From: Citrobacter sp. On2M
GTDB lineage: Bacteria > Pseudomonadota > Gammaproteobacteria > Enterobacterales > Enterobacteriaceae
Length of the DNA stretch: 64,000 nucleotides
Reading direction: 5' to 3'
Assembly (NCBI RefSeq): GCF_018035235.1
Contig: NZ_WPCV01000004.1
Coordinates: forward strand, 1,054,001-1,118,000
How positions within the stretch are numbered: position 1 is the stretch's first letter; the number at the start of each line of letters is the position of its first letter. Below the pieces are notes generated by a model. That model did not search any database. It saw nothing but the letters and a program-made list of their open reading frames with translations, and was not told the origin of the DNA. The translations under genes and the position numbers were made by a program. This document shows, in pieces, positions 19,033 to 27,700 of this stretch.

Positions 19033-19935
19033 CTATTGCTCTGAAAGTTCAAGCTCTGCAATAACCGGCAAGTGATCGCTCGCAGTAGACCACGTGAACT
19101 CTGGCGAATTATGTGGGATCTCCAGATTTTTAACGTTCCACTTCTGGCCTTTAAATGTGAAAATATGGTCAATATCAATCGCCGGGTTTACGGCTGGCCA
19201 AGTACGAGTATCCATCCCTTCTTTTGTGACTTCATTGAAAAAATAACGTATTTCTTTAAGTGGCTGCTCATCCCGGGTCGAATTGAAGTCCCCTGCCAGG
19301 ATCTTGATTGAAGATGCAATATCCTGGAAATCAGATGTTGCATCACCAATGCTGATATCTAACAGGTAACGCGCCTGCTCTGTCCGCATTGTGGGATCTT
19401 TTTGCCAGTCGAGATGTGTCACCATAATAATAGGCGCGGAATCAAAGCCGGGTACGTCAACCTGCGCCAGGAGCACCACGCGTTGTTCCGCGTTTCCCGA
19501 GGGTAGTTTCACGACCTGCGAATGCAGGATTTTATATTTGGAGAGAAGACCTAAGCCGTACTCACCACCATCGAAATCAAGGGCTTTACCGAAGGAATAA
19601 TGTAGGTTATTGGCCTCAGCGATTTTTTTGAGTTGATCAATCTTTTGGCTACGTCCCGTTTTGTTATCAACCTCTGGAACAGCAATAATATCGGCATCAA
19701 TTCTTTTAATCGCCGAATTAAGTGCTGTAAAATCCTTTACATCAGCAGAGGTTTCATTTTTACCAATGTTATAGGTGGCAATCTTTAAATGCGGTTTTTG
19801 TTGTGAGTAAATTTTGTCAGGCACCCCACCTTTTTGAACTTTAAGTATTTCATTTCCAGCAAGTTTCTCATTTGCCTGAGCATTTGCAAGTAAACATCCC
19901 AGCGCAATCATCGTGAATGTAATTGTTTTTTTCAT
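19033..19935 (-). CDS. Secreted endonuclease/exonuclease/phosphatase-family protein
   Basis: 300-residue protein with a signal peptide (MKKTITFTMIALGCLLANAQA, cleavage near residue 21-22) and a complete DNase I/EEP fold signature. It shows N57 in ATYNIG, E88 in VPEVD, H174 in VTHLDW, the D216/N218 pair in AGDFNSTRD, D256/H257 in IDHIF and D287/H288 in ASDHLP. EEP enzymes cut phosphodiester bonds of DNA, phosphoinositides, sphingomyelin or other substrates; the target cannot be read here. CdtB belongs to the same superfamily, but no CdtA/CdtC-like gene is near. The gene looks AT-rich and Lys/Asn-rich compared with its neighbours, suggesting transfer. It is convergent with maeA and stands alone. 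Confidence 0.85.
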   Translation of the reverse strand: MKKTITFTMIALGCLLANAQANEKLAGNEILKVQKGGVPDKIYSQQKPHLKIATYNIGKNETSADVKDFTALNSAIKRIDADIIAVPEVDNKTGRSQKIDQLKKIAEANNLHYSFGKALDFDGGEYGLGLLSKYKILHSQVVKLPSGNAEQRVVLLAQVDVPGFDSAPIIMVTHLDWQKDPTMRTEQARYLLDISIGDATSDFQDIASSIKILAGDFNSTRDEQPLKEIRYFFNEVTKEGMDTRTWPAVNPAIDIDHIFTFKGQKWNVKNLEIPHNSPEFTWSTASDHLPVIAELELSEQ

Positions 19936-20194
19936 ATCATCTATTCTCCAAAAAATAAAATAGTGAGAAGAGGATACTGGAGAATTTCGACTGTTGTTGT
20001 GATCGTTAACTCATGCTTTTGACGCGAAGAAAATTAACTTTTGAATAATTATCCTGTGTTCATGGTTTCTGCATTAACGTAACGTCCAACATGCCAGGTT
20101 TCACGGCCATACGTTCGAAACTTGCACTACTGCGTAACTTGCGATTACACTTTCACCATCGATTAACATTCGGAAATATAAAAGGAGGATACTT
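19936..20194. other. Intergenic region upstream of leader ORF
   Basis: AT-rich start region of the EEP gene followed by the presumed promoter and 5' leader of the ABC-F gene. I see no gene of its own here. Confidence 0.4.
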
Positions 20195-20278
20195 ATGCTG
20201 TACTGTGAACGTTTCATCGTTTCACATGCTTTTGGCGATCGCCAGTGCTCAAGCGTTATCGGTATCGTGCTGCGATAA
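20195..20278 (+). CDS. Putative 27-codon leader peptide upstream of ABC-F gene
   Basis: Small ORF MLYCERFIVSHAFGDRQCSS followed by VIGIVLR. A near-perfect ribosome site (AGGAGG, 6 bases, ATG) supports translation far better than the site of the ABC-F gene itself. Codons 18-22 and the stop codon fall inside a strong stem-loop that continues past the stop. I do not recognise the peptide. An overlapping frame without a comparable ribosome site is also open. Its position 113 bases before the ABC-F start suggests a ribosome-sensing leader like those of erm and antibiotic-resistance ABC-F genes; this is inference. Confidence 0.6.
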   Translation: MLYCERFIVSHAFGDRQCSSVIGIVLR

Positions 20279-20342
20279 CTTCTGCTTGAGCGAAGCTAAC
20301 TTCTAAATCCCCTTCTCTCGGGCTTACCGGGTTATCGTCAGC
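20247..20342 (+). promoter_or_regulatory. Candidate attenuator with alternative pairings
   Basis: Hairpin 1: GCTCAAGC-GTTATC (20247-20260) pairs with GATAAC (20274-20279) and GCTTGAGC (20284-20291). Alternative: GCTGCGATAAC (20269-20279) can pair with GTTATCGTCAGC (20331-20342) with a one-base bulge. CTCAAG in the leader (20248-20253) is also complementary to CTTGAG at 20376-20381, just before the ABC-F ATG. These pairings are mutually exclusive, the usual layout of attenuation control. Confidence 0.5.
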
Positions 20343-20390
20343 GATGTTTGACGAGGCGTTTTTACGCCTGTAACTCTTGAGTAAGCAACA

Positions 20391-22106
20391 ATGAGCACAT
20401 TACTAACCGCACAATCCTTACACGTTGATACGGCATTTGGCACGCTATTCGACGATCTCACATTTACCCTGAAAAAAGGCGACCGCATCGGGCTTATCGG
20501 CTATAACGGCTGCGGCAAAAGCACGTTGTTAAAGCTGCTTGATGGCACCATTTCTCCCACCAGTGGCGTAATCGCGCAGGCGAATTACTGTCAACTCGCC
20601 CGTGTAGAACAACATTTACCCGACGATGTACTGCCGCTAACGTTGCAGGAGGCGGTTCTTGCTCAACTTCCCGAACATGAGCGCGCCAGCCAGCAGTGGC
20701 GAGTTGAAGCGTTACTCGCCGAAATGGGCTTTACGTCGGAGAATTTGCACCTCACTGCACAGACGCTGAGCGGCGGGCAGCACACGCGGCTTTTATTAGC
20801 GCGGGCGCTGATGCGAAATCCCGATCTGCTGCTGCTGGATGAACCGGGTAACCATCTGGATTTGCCAACATTACTGTGGCTGGAACAGTTCTTACAGAAC
20901 TGGTCTGGCAGTTTTGTGGTGGTTTCTCACGACCCACAATTGCTGGATGCGGTGACGCAGGGAACCTGGATCCTGCGCGATCGTACTCTCCATGCCTTCG
21001 ATCTACCCTGCAGCGAGGCGCGTCAGGCTCTGGCAGAAAGAGACGCCAGCGATGCTCTGCGCCATAAGGCTGAACAAAAGGAGATAGACCGGGTTACCGC
21101 CAGCGCTAAACGGCTGGCAACCTGGGGGCGGGTCTACGACAACGAGGATTTGTCCCGCAAAGCGAAGCAGATGGAAAAGCAGGTGCAACGCCTGAAGGAC
21201 GTTCAGACGGAAGTGACCGCAGGAAGTCAGTGGACACTAACATTGCATGGCGATGCCCTGCGTGCAGATCGTTTACTGGAGATGACTAATTTGTCGGTGG
21301 CCCCTGCTCCCGGCGCAGATACGCTGTTTTCCATTGCCGGAATTCGGTTAAAAAGCGGCGATCGGGTGGCGATTGTCGGACGCAACGGTTGCGGGAAATC
21401 TTCGCTGTTAAGGCTTATCTGGCAACAGTTTCAGTCACAGCTGGTATCACCTTCGCTGGTGTTGCACCCGCGCGTTACGTTGGGGTATTACGACCAGACG
21501 TTGCATCAGCTTGCCGATAGCGATTCGCTATTTGACGCGCTGGAGCCTTTTGCGCCTCAGCCTGATATCCGCAAAATGGCGCTGATTAGCGCGGGTTTTC
21601 CGTGGATCCGCCACGCGCAGAAAGTCAGTGTTTTAAGTGGTGGTGAGCGCTCCCGGCTGCTGTTTGTTGGGCTCTCGCTAGCTCGCTACGGCCTGCTGAT
21701 GCTCGACGAACCGACCAACCATCTGGATCTGGAAGGTAAAGAGGCGCTGGCAGCAACGCTGCAAAGCTACCACGGCGGCGTGTTGCTGGTCAGTCATGAC
21801 CGTCAGCTTATTAGCCAAAGCTGCAACCGGTTTTGGTTTATCGACGAGGGTGAGCTTGGCGAATGGCATGACCTGGAGGCAATCAACGCGCGTATTCAGG
21901 GCGCCACCAGTGAGTTAATGGTGCATAACAGTGTGGCAAAGGTTGTTCCTGCTCCCCATCGCAGTGGAGATGAAGTACTGGAAAAACTTCTTGAGCTGGA
22001 GCAGCGGCTGGCCGACGACCTCGCCCGCAAACCGAAGCATCAGAAACCGCAATTACAGACGCAATGGCGGAAGGAGATTGCGCGTCTGAATTCACAACTG
22101 GAGTAA
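20391..22106 (+). CDS. ABC-F family ATPase (ribosome-associated type)
   Basis: 571-residue protein with two ABC ATPase domains and no membrane segments. ABC-F proteins act on the ribosome E-site; some protect it from antibiotics. NBD1: Walker A GYNGCGKST (37-45), LSGGQ (126-130), Walker B LLLLDEPGNHLD (146-157), where G replaces the usual T of DEPTNHLD. The charged helical linker is at about 205-285. NBD2: Walker A GRNGCGKSS (330-338), LSGGERSR, LMLDEPTNHLD. A C-terminal charged helical extension follows. It is not one of the four E. coli paralogs (EttA, Uup, YbiT, YheS) by position, and its exact subfamily is unknown to me. Its ribosome site is weak and may be masked by the leader structure. 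Confidence 0.9.
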   Translation: MSTLLTAQSLHVDTAFGTLFDDLTFTLKKGDRIGLIGYNGCGKSTLLKLLDGTISPTSGVIAQANYCQLARVEQHLPDDVLPLTLQEAVLAQLPEHERASQQWRVEALLAEMGFTSENLHLTAQTLSGGQHTRLLLARALMRNPDLLLLDEPGNHLDLPTLLWLEQFLQNWSGSFVVVSHDPQLLDAVTQGTWILRDRTLHAFDLPCSEARQALAERDASDALRHKAEQKEIDRVTASAKRLATWGRVYDNEDLSRKAKQMEKQVQRLKDVQTEVTAGSQWTLTLHGDALRADRLLEMTNLSVAPAPGADTLFSIAGIRLKSGDRVAIVGRNGCGKSSLLRLIWQQFQSQLVSPSLVLHPRVTLGYYDQTLHQLADSDSLFDALEPFAPQPDIRKMALISAGFPWIRHAQKVSVLSGGERSRLLFVGLSLARYGLLMLDEPTNHLDLEGKEALAATLQSYHGGVLLVSHDRQLISQSCNRFWFIDEGELGEWHDLEAINARIQGATSELMVHNSVAKVVPAPHRSGDEVLEKLLELEQRLADDLARKPKHQKPQLQTQWRKEIARLNSQLE

Positions 22107-24784: not shown

Positions 24785-27700
24785 TTACGCCTTCTCGATG
24801 TTAACTAAAAACGCTTTGTATTCCGGCGTTTGCGAGTTTGCATCACCGACATTCGGCGTCAGGGTGTTGGCGATAAAGCCTTTACGCGCGACTCCTTCAA
24901 AGCCCCAGTGAATTGGGATCCCAACCGTTTCAACCTGCTGACCGTTGACGTTCAGGGTACGCAGACGACGAGTGACGACAGCAACTGCGCGAATAAATCC
25001 ACGCTTGCTGCTGACTTTCACGTAATCGCCATTGTTAATTCCCTTCGCTGCCGCCAGTGTTTCGCTGATTTCCACAAACTGCTCTGGCTGGGCAATCGCA
25101 TTCAGTAATGCGTGCTTGGTCCAGGTATGGAAATGTTCGGTCAGACGATAGGTTGTCCCGACGTACGGGAAATCCTGCTTCGTCCCCATGCGTAATTTAT
25201 CCGCCTCGTACAGACGTGCTGCCGGGTTGGAGATCACGCTCGGGTGCAGCGGGTTAGTACCCAGCGGTGTTTCCATCGGCTCGTAGTGTTCCGGGAACGG
25301 CCCTTCCGCCATTTTATCGATAGCGAACAGACGACCCAGCCCTTCCGGCTGCATAATAAACGGATTAGTGCCACTGCCCGGTGCCGCGGTGCTGAAGTCC
25401 GGGATATCGTTCCCCGTCCACTTCGTGCCGTTCCACTGGATCAGCATACGTTTTGGATCCCACGGCTTGCCCTGCGGATCCGCCGATGCGCGGTTATACA
25501 GGACGCGACGGTTCAACGGCCATGCCCAGGTCCAGCCCAGCGTATTACCAAGACCTGACGGGTCGGCGTTATCGCGGTTGGCCATCTGGTTGCCCTGCTC
25601 GGTCCAGCTACCGGTATAAATCCAGCATGAGGATGAGGTCGTTCCATCATCGCGAAGGAGTGCAAAGCTGCTGAGCAACTGACCTTTCTTCGCAATTAGC
25701 ACGCCGTTGGCGTCATAGAGATCTTCCAGCGCATAGCCGTTATTCTCTTTCGCCACTTCCTCGGAATGCGGTTCGTCCGGTTGCTTATAGTTCCAGCTCA
25801 TTTTCAGCACCGGCTCTACGGCCTTACCGCCTTCAGTGCGATACATATCGCGCAGACGGTGGTAAATACCGGCCAGAATTTCGCCGTCGTTGCGGGCTTC
25901 ACCCGGCGCATCCTGTCCTTTCCAGTGCCACTGCAGCCAACGGCCGGAGTTGGCGATGGAGCCATCTTCTTCCGCAAAGCAAGTGGATGGCAGACGGAAG
26001 ACTTCGGTCTGAATAGATGCCGGGTCGACATCGTTAGACTCGCCGTGGTTCTGCCAGAACGTTGAGGTTTCAGTCACCAGCGGATCGATTACCACCAGAT
26101 ACTTCAGTTTACTCAGCGACTGCACCACTTTGTTTTTATCCGGGAAGGACGCAACCGGGTTAAAGCCCTGACAGATGTAGCCGGTGACTTTCCCGCTATC
26201 CATCATGTTGAAGTATTTAATGACGTCGTAGGACTGATCCCACTTCGGCAGCCAATCAAAGCCCCAGTCGTTCTCTTTTTGCGCCGCATTGCCATAGAAA
26301 GACTTCATCAGACTGACGAAGAATTTCGGATAGTTGCCCCAGTAGTTAACCTGATCGGCTAACGTGGCTTTCGGCGTATTCGCGGCCAGATAGGTTTGCA
26401 GATCCGCGTGTTTCTCTGACGGCAGCGTCAGGTAGCCCGGCAGACTGGTCGACAGCAGACCTAAATCAGTTAACCCCTGAATGTTGGAGTGACCGCGTAA
26501 GGCGTTAACCCCACCACCTGCCATCCCCATGTTGCCGAGCAACAACTGGATCATCGCCATGGTACGGATGTTCTGCGCCCCGACGGTATGTTGAGTCCAG
26601 CCCAGCGCATACAGGAAGGTGGTTGTGCGATCGGCTGCGCTGGTGGAAGCCAGCACTTCGCAGACTTTCAGGAAGTCTGCTTTTGGCGTACCGCAGATGT
26701 TTTCCACCACATCCGGCGTGTAGCGGGAAACGTGCTGTTTTAACAGATTCCAGACACAGCGAGGATGGCTTAACGTTTCATCGCGTTTCGCGTAGCCGTT
26801 TTCATCGAACTGATAGTTCCAGGACGATTTATCGTATTGGCGTTTTTGTGCGTCGTATCCGCTGAACAGACCGTCTTCAAAAGTAAAGTCATCCCGCACC
26901 AGCAGGCTGGCGTTGGTGTAATGCTTCACGTATTCAGCATTGATTTTGTTGTTTTCAATCAGGTACAGCAAAACACCTGACAGGAACGTGATGTCCGTGC
27001 CGGAACGAATCGGCGCGTAAATATCTGCCACCGAGGCTGTACGGGTGAAACGAGGGTCAACAACAATCAGCGTGGCATCATTGTTGTTTTTGGCTTCCAT
27101 CGCCCAGCGGAATCCCACCGGATGTGCTTCAGCGGCGTTACCGCCCATCACCATCACGACGTTGGCGTTTTTAATATCTACCCAGTGGTTGGTCATCGCA
27201 CCGCGACCAAATGTTGGAGCAAGACTTGCTACCGTTGGTCCGTGTCAGACGCGTGCCTGGTTATCAACTGCCAGCATGCCGAGAGAGCGCACAAATTTTT
27301 GCGTCAGCATGCCGGTTTCATTACTTGCCGCAGATGCACACAGCATCCCGGTAGAAAGCCAGCGGTTAACCGTTACGCCCTGCTCATTCTTCTCAATAAA
27401 ATTGGCGTCGCGGTCAGCTTTCATCAGTTTCGCGATGCGGGTAAAGGCATCATCCCAGCTGATACGCTGCCATTTGTCGGAGCCAGGAGCGCGATATTCC
27501 GGGTAACGCAGACGGTTTTCGCTGTGTATGTAATCCAATAATCCTGCGCCCTTAGGACATAATGCCCCACGGCTCACCGGATGATCCGGATCCCCTTCAA
27601 TATGGTAAATCGATTCTTTGGCGTTTTTAGCTCCATCACCCAGGCTATACATTAATAGCCCGCAACCTACGGAACAGTATGTGCATGTGTTTCGGATCTC

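Follow-up and report, generated by a model that had tools for sequence, protein, structure and literature searches.

The locus described here raises the question of whether a short open reading frame (ORF) placed just before an ABC-F ATPase gene, together with the RNA around it, senses stalled ribosomes and sets the expression of that gene. It lies in Citrobacter sp. On2M, within a stretch of 64,000 nucleotides (contig NZ_WPCV01000004.1 of RefSeq assembly GCF_018035235.1, positions 1,054,001 to 1,118,000 of the forward strand) that is called the window below and from whose first letter all positions are counted. An initial annotation of the window had described a 27-codon ORF with a strong Shine-Dalgarno (SD) sequence, followed by mutually exclusive hairpins and an ABC-F gene with a weak SD of its own, and had compared this layout to ribosome-stalling attenuation. 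The small ORF is present with its SD AAGGAGG, and it precedes an ABC-F gene that starts at 20391 behind a weak SD (TAAG, 20382-20385); the gap between the small-ORF stop and the ABC-F start is 112 bases, not the 113 first given. On the evidence of computed folds and covariation, we consider it likely, at a probability of roughly 0.78, that the locus is an erm-like translational attenuator that ties expression of a chromosomal ABC-F gene to stalling in the 27-codon leader.

Conservation of the small ORF was followed through 295 genomes drawn evenly from the Enterobacteriaceae. At an orthologue cut-off of E <= 1e-200, the ABC-F gene is found in 77 of them, in 36 of 154 genera; one copy (G250) carries an in-frame TGA and another (G199) matches residues 1-506 only. 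An SD-led ORF lies about 110 bases 5' of the gene at 77/77 loci, each time behind AAGGAG or a longer match, and its product has 27 amino acids in 75 cases, 28 in one and, after a change of frame, 35 in one. In this last leader (L055), the frame changes late in the small ORF and the RNA segments described below are kept. Across 73 27-codon copies, which omit L081 and L083 (both of 27 amino acids), L053 (28) and L055 (35), there is no in-frame stop, compared with stops in 26/73 and 73/73 copies in the other frames. Conservation rises at the small ORF: the mean majority fraction is 0.45 over the 180 bases 5' of the SD region and 0.60 in the nearest 60, then 0.76 over the SD and codons 1-17, 0.90 from codon 18 to the stop, 0.81 from the stop to the ABC-F start and 0.77 in the first 20 ABC-F codons. 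The initial annotation had turned to homologous loci for a check, and there both the small ORF (77/77) and the pairings, which covary, are conserved, in the Enterobacteriaceae as well as in other families.

Outside the Enterobacteriaceae, ABC-F orthologues at 50-60% identity occur in 4/12 genomes of family f190, 9/81 of f201 and 13/51 of f205, with a tenth locus in f201. SD-led leaders of 26 or 28 codons precede 27/27 loci of these three families, for example MSLWCSINPRLFGMKARSRVLDIALR and MVIQACPMFSARLFGTFACSCLHTIALR. To judge from leader peptides identical or nearly identical to those of Vibrio campbellii and Aeromonas caviae, f201 appears to be Vibrionaceae-like and f205 Aeromonas-like; the f205 leaders are mutually close relatives and are thus not independent. 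The ABC-F protein of Burkholderia lata (51% identity) is preceded by the same kind of leader, MVFLVRPLMLAHLYSTFACSCLSSIALR; among the matches listed for distant ABC-F proteins, this is the one locus of 80 at 51% identity, the others lying at 26-37%, and the upstream region was inspected for 7 of the 80. An ABC-F protein at 41% identity (L119) in one genome of the Enterobacteriaceae (G160) has no such leader upstream. The leader is also present in named records of Klebsiella pneumoniae, Morganella morganii (a 50-kb plasmid), A. caviae and V. campbellii. Records with the ABC-F gene that PLSDB holds as plasmids measure 5.4 Mb in K. pneumoniae, 4.9 Mb in A. caviae, 4.1 Mb in Proteus mirabilis and 50 kb in Morganella; given their chromosome size, the large ones are probably mislabelled chromosomes, while the 50-kb record is plasmid-sized. 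As a separate observation, four alphaproteobacterial ABC-F relatives at 34-37% identity (L121-L124, from Aminobacter, a Rhodospirillales metagenome-assembled genome, Rhizobium and Brucella pseudintermedia) are preceded by a small SD-led ORF of another kind, in which a stretch resembling R(Q)RGPV or QYGPG is kept; this is perhaps an unrelated leader family.

The peptide itself bears a kept motif. When 106 leaders are aligned from the stop codon, 100 have S, A or P at codon 10, 95 have H or R at codon 11, 105 have F, L or Y at codon 13 and 91 have G at codon 14, and the position of FG relative to the stop is identical in all families. Outside the Enterobacteriaceae, the coding score (codons -25 to -11) is reached by 0/400 column shuffles, computed on 26 distinct sequences of which many are closely related; over all families, 13/400 shuffles score as high. 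Peptide conservation read directly from the alignment was rejected as proof, because RNA constrains codons 18-27 and a hairpin inside the ORF, H0, constrains codons 4-5 and 10-11. For codons 18-27, the ratio of nonsynonymous to synonymous polymorphism (pN/pS) is 1.84, and their conservation is attributed to the RNA pairing that shapes them. H0 is 93.3% paired in the Enterobacteriaceae and 72.4% across families, with 45 double-changed cells, and its double-changed pairs do not exceed those of shuffles (163/500 and 453/500 as many, respectively). The Enterobacteriaceae values for H0 and for the helices below come from 75 distinct leaders, and the cross-family values for those helices from 52. 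The sequence of H0 differs between families with its pairing kept (TGTGAA/TTCACA, TGCAAA/TTTGCA, GTGTA/TACAC). One might suppose that the RNA structure acts alone, as a protein- or ligand-binding element or in autoregulation by the ABC-F protein, and that the ORF is incidental: pairing accounts for codons 18-27, and the locus matches no Rfam family at gathering cut-offs, so that an undescribed element is conceivable. Such a reading is nonetheless highly improbable, as the ORF retains its start, SD, frame and length while its sequence varies, a coding signal appears outside the Enterobacteriaceae, and the motif keeps its distance from the stop.

The RNA from 20180 to 20400 folds at -72.6 kcal/mol, compared with -57.8 kcal/mol (standard deviation 4.4) for shuffles (z -3.35), none of which (0/200) is as low. 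It holds four segments, numbered 1 to 4 in their order along the RNA, with mutually exclusive pairings: in 1:2, 3:4 and 1:4 the SD region of the ABC-F gene is concealed, whereas 2:3 can release it. The strong stem that had been proposed around the end of the small ORF is present, with GCTCAAGCGTTATC in segment 1 pairing with GATAAC (20274-20279) and GCTTGAGC (20284-20291). Equally present is the alternative in which GCTGCGATAAC (20269-20279), which runs from the end of codon 25 to one base past the small-ORF stop, faces GTTATCGTCAGC (20331-20342). This helix 2:3 is 98.3% paired in the Enterobacteriaceae (0/500 shuffles as well paired), with 3 double-changed pairs (7/500 as many), and 98.6% paired across families, with 5 double-changed pairs, where 0/500 shuffles reach either value. 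The combined structure of 1:2 and 3:4 is 94.4% paired with 11 double-changed pairs (1/500 shuffles as many), a slid control giving 25-39%; the inner half of 1:2 is the least well paired (87.5%), and the outer part of 1:2 is 90.1% paired across families. The initial annotation had further suggested that CTCAAG (20248-20253) masks CTTGAG (20376-20381) before the ABC-F start. In the Enterobacteriaceae, this 1:4 pairing is 96.2% paired for six pairs and 93.1% for ten, and the proposal stands there, although not as one register fixed across families (see below). Duplex energies computed sequence by sequence for 107 leaders, representing 106 distinct places because L073 and L092 coincide, are better than those of shuffles at 0.05 in 101 leaders for 2:3, 88 for 1:4 and 88 for 1:2. 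The RNAalifold structure of all 77 Enterobacteriaceae leaders contains outer 1:2 among other hairpins, but neither 2:3 nor 3:4. In the window, fold A (1:2 with 3:4) and fold B (1:4 around 2:3) differ by no more than about 2 kcal/mol, their order varying with the flank folded, and the segment 4 region has a computed unpaired fraction of 0.15-0.29 in either.

Hairpins of this kind could also act on transcription, by forming or preventing an intrinsic terminator upstream of the ABC-F gene in the manner of msrD and vmlR. The window does contain one terminator-like site here (20335-20354, + strand; 0.3 expected), but the T-run of this site coincides with the loop of the following hairpin, relatives in the alignment do not keep it, and the pairings that are kept cover the ABC-F SD. 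Because the sole terminator-like site is weak and not kept, transcription attenuation is decidedly unlikely, and an intrinsic-terminator attenuator was rejected as the main mode.

The switch also appears specific to this gene. A covariance model (R2) spanning segment 1 to the ABC-F start, built on the Enterobacteriaceae and applied at E <= 0.001, matches 79 of the 295 genomes, each of them once only. At 77/77 orthologues, the match lies on the same strand and ends no more than 14 bases before the start codon or overlaps it by up to 3, and the remaining two matches stand beside incomplete ABC-F copies (in G195 the contig ends inside the gene; in G028, a 49% complete assembly, the gene is in two pieces). 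Among 197 genomes of the order, the model matches in 14, always 5' of ABC-F genes. It is poor on the f205 form (L102 scores 16.6 bits, E 0.03, and L219 from A. caviae gives no match), so that misses among these 197 genomes do not mean absence. Within the reach of the model, the switch is not seen elsewhere in the searched genomes.

What a stalled ribosome would do to these folds was simulated by placing a ribosome at each codon and folding the RNA left downstream, for the 77 Enterobacteriaceae leaders and 28 others. The region from -14 to +3 of the ABC-F start is most open with the P site at about codons 14-22 and partly open at later codons, its openness rising from 0.39 unstalled to as much as 0.52 in the Enterobacteriaceae and from 0.32 to as much as 0.53 in the others. 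For the SD region (-20 to -7), a ribosome at codon 17 raises openness from 0.29 to 0.49 in the Enterobacteriaceae, with a rise in 66/77 leaders (0.20 to 0.48 in that of the window), from 0.28 to 0.53 in f190 and from 0.26 to 0.43 in f201. A stall at the start codon, in the manner of vmlR, is not favoured, since with the ribosome at codon 1 the openness is the same as without a stall (0.29/0.29 in the Enterobacteriaceae, 0.40/0.40 in the 28 others). The same anatomy would serve a leader that senses slow or starved translation in general, through a shortage of charged tRNA or ribosome defects, with the ABC-F protein as a housekeeping rescue factor. CGA, a rare and slowly read arginine codon, precedes the stop in 63 of 67 distinct 27-codon leaders; however, it lies inside helix 2:3, so that RNA pairing can explain its conservation, and the SD opens less with a ribosome at codons 25-28 than with one at codon 17. 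The leader also has no run of one amino acid, and the patchy presence of the gene across genomes and genera suits an accessory trait. Although the passages of PMC6723617 on PAF1, the ABC-F subfamily considered below, give no tested function for it, general sensing of this kind appears unlikely.

Several results weigh against the erm-like attenuator. In the Enterobacteriaceae, pN/pS of codons 2-17 is 0.72, hardly under the 0.79 and 0.97 of the other frames, and the coding score in that family alone is reached by 41/400 column shuffles and is not decisive. Across families, 1:4 in one fixed register is 79.1% paired, a value that 444/500 shuffles attain, and the 1:2 duplex beats shuffles in 0/13 f205 leaders. 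The ABC-F start codon is 0.53-0.96 unpaired in either fold. Folding the unstalled leader together with 40 bases of the gene gives 2:3 as the main pairing in 46/77 cases already and 1:2 in only 27/77. Much of the repression must therefore fall to 1:4, and fold B is at least as important as the stem of the initial annotation. In the 28 leaders outside the family, a stall at codon 17 opens -20 to -7 from 0.40 to 0.44 only, with a rise in 12, and in f205 the value falls from 0.54 to 0.42; given a purine-rich stretch nearer the ATG, -20 to -7 may not be the SD region in f205. If segment 2 is barred from pairing, SD openness in the Enterobacteriaceae drops only part of the way, from 0.49 to 0.40. 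Finally, the ABC-F protein reaches 324.9 bits with its best NCBIfam model, NF000355 (ribosomal-protection ABC-F), below the model's cut-off of 380 and so short of the curated level for antibiotic-resistance (ARE) proteins.

Under the erm-like attenuator, the mRNA of a leader without a stall would take fold A or fold B, and in both the ABC-F SD region is computed to be mostly paired. A ribosome that stalls with its P site around codons 14-22 is predicted to cover segment 1, and with segment 1 covered, neither 1:2 nor 1:4 could form. Segment 2 would then pair with segment 3, as folding and covariation suggest, leaving segment 4 freer and the ABC-F gene open to translation. The stall would most likely be set by the motif [S/A/P][H/R]x[F/L/Y]G together with an inhibitor at the peptidyl-transferase centre (PTC) or in the tunnel; with the P site at codons 16-20, the motif would sit a few residues from the PTC, the site of drug-dependent arrest peptides. 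An ABC-F gene as the target makes an inhibitor of the PTC or tunnel the probable signal, and this inhibitor may be a drug. The ABC-F protein would then relieve the inhibition, to judge from its family. A further proposal, put forward tentatively and with slightly less than even confidence, is that the motif, which every family seen has 13 residues before the stop, represents a new class of nascent-chain arrest motif sensing a natural PTC or tunnel inhibitor, and that leader and ABC-F gene together form an old inducible ribosome-protection system of Gram-negatives across gamma- and betaproteobacteria. Such inducible ribosome-protection systems are known mostly from Gram-positives.

The ABC-F protein has two ABC domains, and Uup, Msr, Vga and other NCBIfam models score below NF000355 for it. 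Its nearest solved relatives by sequence are YheS and two entries deposited as ExpZ, which we take to be VmlR-type proteins. The PAF1 subfamily, as described by Murina et al. (2019; PMC6723617), is proteobacterial and occurs in Vibrio, Enterobacter, Klebsiella, Serratia and Citrobacter, not in Escherichia; it was predicted there to be a resistance ABCF from phylogeny and patchy distribution. In the genera checked by name, the range of the present gene agrees, with Klebsiella and Vibrio in and Escherichia out: among 20,395 Escherichia coli records, neither the leader nor the ABC-F gene was matched by blastn, a search blind to very diverged copies. The ABC-F protein of this locus thus probably belongs to PAF1, and it may act as a resistance factor. 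The main text of PMC6723617 has 0 occurrences of "leader peptide" and of "attenuation" and mentions no PAF1 leader.

The features of the locus are collected in Table 1. Of the 125 nucleotides 5' of the small ORF, CGCTACACT is, apart from the SD, one of the blocks most strongly conserved at the 77 loci, and the leader mRNA may have its own promoter there; a scan for the sigma-70 consensus found no promoter for this mRNA.

Table 1. The leader, its RNA segments and the ABC-F gene, in positions of the window.
Feature	Position	Strand	Basis or remarks
Candidate -10 TACACT, putative promoter of the leader mRNA	20146..20151	+	inferred; within conserved block CGCTACACT
SD of the small ORF, AAGGAGG	20182..20188	+	six bases 5' of the ATG
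Leader ORF, 27 codons, MLYCERFIVSHAFGDRQCSSVIGIVLR*	20195..20278	+	ORF list; kept among orthologues
Hairpin H0 inside the leader ORF	20204..20226	+	TGTGAA 20204-20209 with TTCACA 20221-20226
Codons 10-14, motif [S/A/P][H/R]x[F/L/Y]G, candidate arrest motif	20222..20236	+	residue counts
Segment 1, GCTCAAGCGTTATC, codons 18-22	20247..20260	+	partners: segment 2, segment 4
Segment 2, GCTGCGATAAC (20269-20279) and GCTTGAGC (20284-20291)	20269..20291	+	partners: segment 1 or 3
Segment 3, GCTTACCGGGTTATCGTCAGC	20322..20342	+	partners: segment 2 or 4
Two small hairpins between segments 3 and 4, CGTCA/TGACG and AGGCGT/ACGCCT	20336..20369	+	second: 3 double-changed pairs
Segment 4, TAACTCTTGAGTAAGC, contains the ABC-F SD TAAG (20382-20385)	20371..20386	+	partners: segment 3 or 1
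ABC-F ATPase gene, 571 amino acids, probably PAF1	20391..22106	+	translation, curated models, orthologues

Between the small ORF and the switch, a kept pyrimidine tract, CCCTTCTCTC (20310-20319), can pair with the small-ORF SD in the window fold and in the RNAalifold structure. A HigB-like toxin gene (Pfam PF05015, 22128-22403) lies directly 3' of the ABC-F gene, and a gene of the endonuclease/exonuclease/phosphatase family (19033-19935, - strand) is divergent from the leader. In the named K. pneumoniae record, the ABC-F gene stands between malic enzyme and adhP genes, preceded by a glycosyl transferase gene and a hypothetical gene. Farther along the window, a SECIS element (Rfam SECIS_3, 27192-27250, - strand, 84.3 bits) would fit a formate dehydrogenase-N gene.

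If the erm-like attenuator is right, a conserved stall-sensing leader would be evidence, independent of the phylogeny-based prediction of 2019, that the ABC-F protein answers ribosome trouble, and the inducers of a leader-reporter fusion would be candidates for what the protein counters. It would also mean that leaders have long controlled chromosomal ABC-F genes in Klebsiella, Vibrio, Aeromonas and related bacteria, beyond the Gram-positives, and would add a possible new arrest-peptide motif. No published description of this leader was found in the literature searched, a body that leaves most subscription journals and preprints outside its scope. For PAF1, the proteobacterial range and the resistance prediction of PMC6723617 are shared, while that paper mentions no leader.

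The closest model is erm. The ermC/ErmCL system (PMC12121999) shares an SD-led short ORF and has, as is predicted here, a stall within that ORF and alternative hairpins by which the SD of the following gene is exposed. Two features of the type, the SD-led short ORF upstream and mutually exclusive pairings that hide the downstream SD, were found at this locus. In contrast to erm, the target here is an ABC-F gene rather than a methyltransferase gene, the leader has 26-28 codons with a predicted stall near codons 14-22, and the locus is chromosomal and seen in gammaproteobacteria and one betaproteobacterium. Among ABC-F genes, vmlR of Bacillus subtilis (PMC9226507), cplR and vga(A) (as cited in PMC12121999) likewise have an upstream open reading frame (uORF) 5' of the gene, and an SD-sequestering hairpin is among the structures described for vmlR (PMC9226507), as here. 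These leaders are said to stall at the start codon (PMC12121999, PMC9226507), and that of vmlR is a three-codon uORF (MIN) acting by transcription attenuation (PMC9226507), whereas at the present locus the computed folds show no opening of the SD with the ribosome at codon 1, and no terminator is kept. Leader-peptide stalling of the sort predicted here controls the ABC-F gene msrD (PMC10314930); its leader MsrDL, however, is MYLIFM, acts by transcription attenuation and belongs to a mobile macrolide operon. In E. coli, part of the uORF toiL, 5' of topAI, pairs with the SD downstream unless a stalled ribosome stands in the way (PMC12121999), much like 1:4 here, although the target is a toxin-antitoxin operon and several drugs and stall sites are involved. 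Ultimately, the working principle is known from erm leaders and from the Gram-positive ABC-F leaders of msrD, vmlR, cplR and vga(A), and what is distinct here is the long leader, the predicted late stall, the kept peptide motif and the wide, mostly chromosomal spread.

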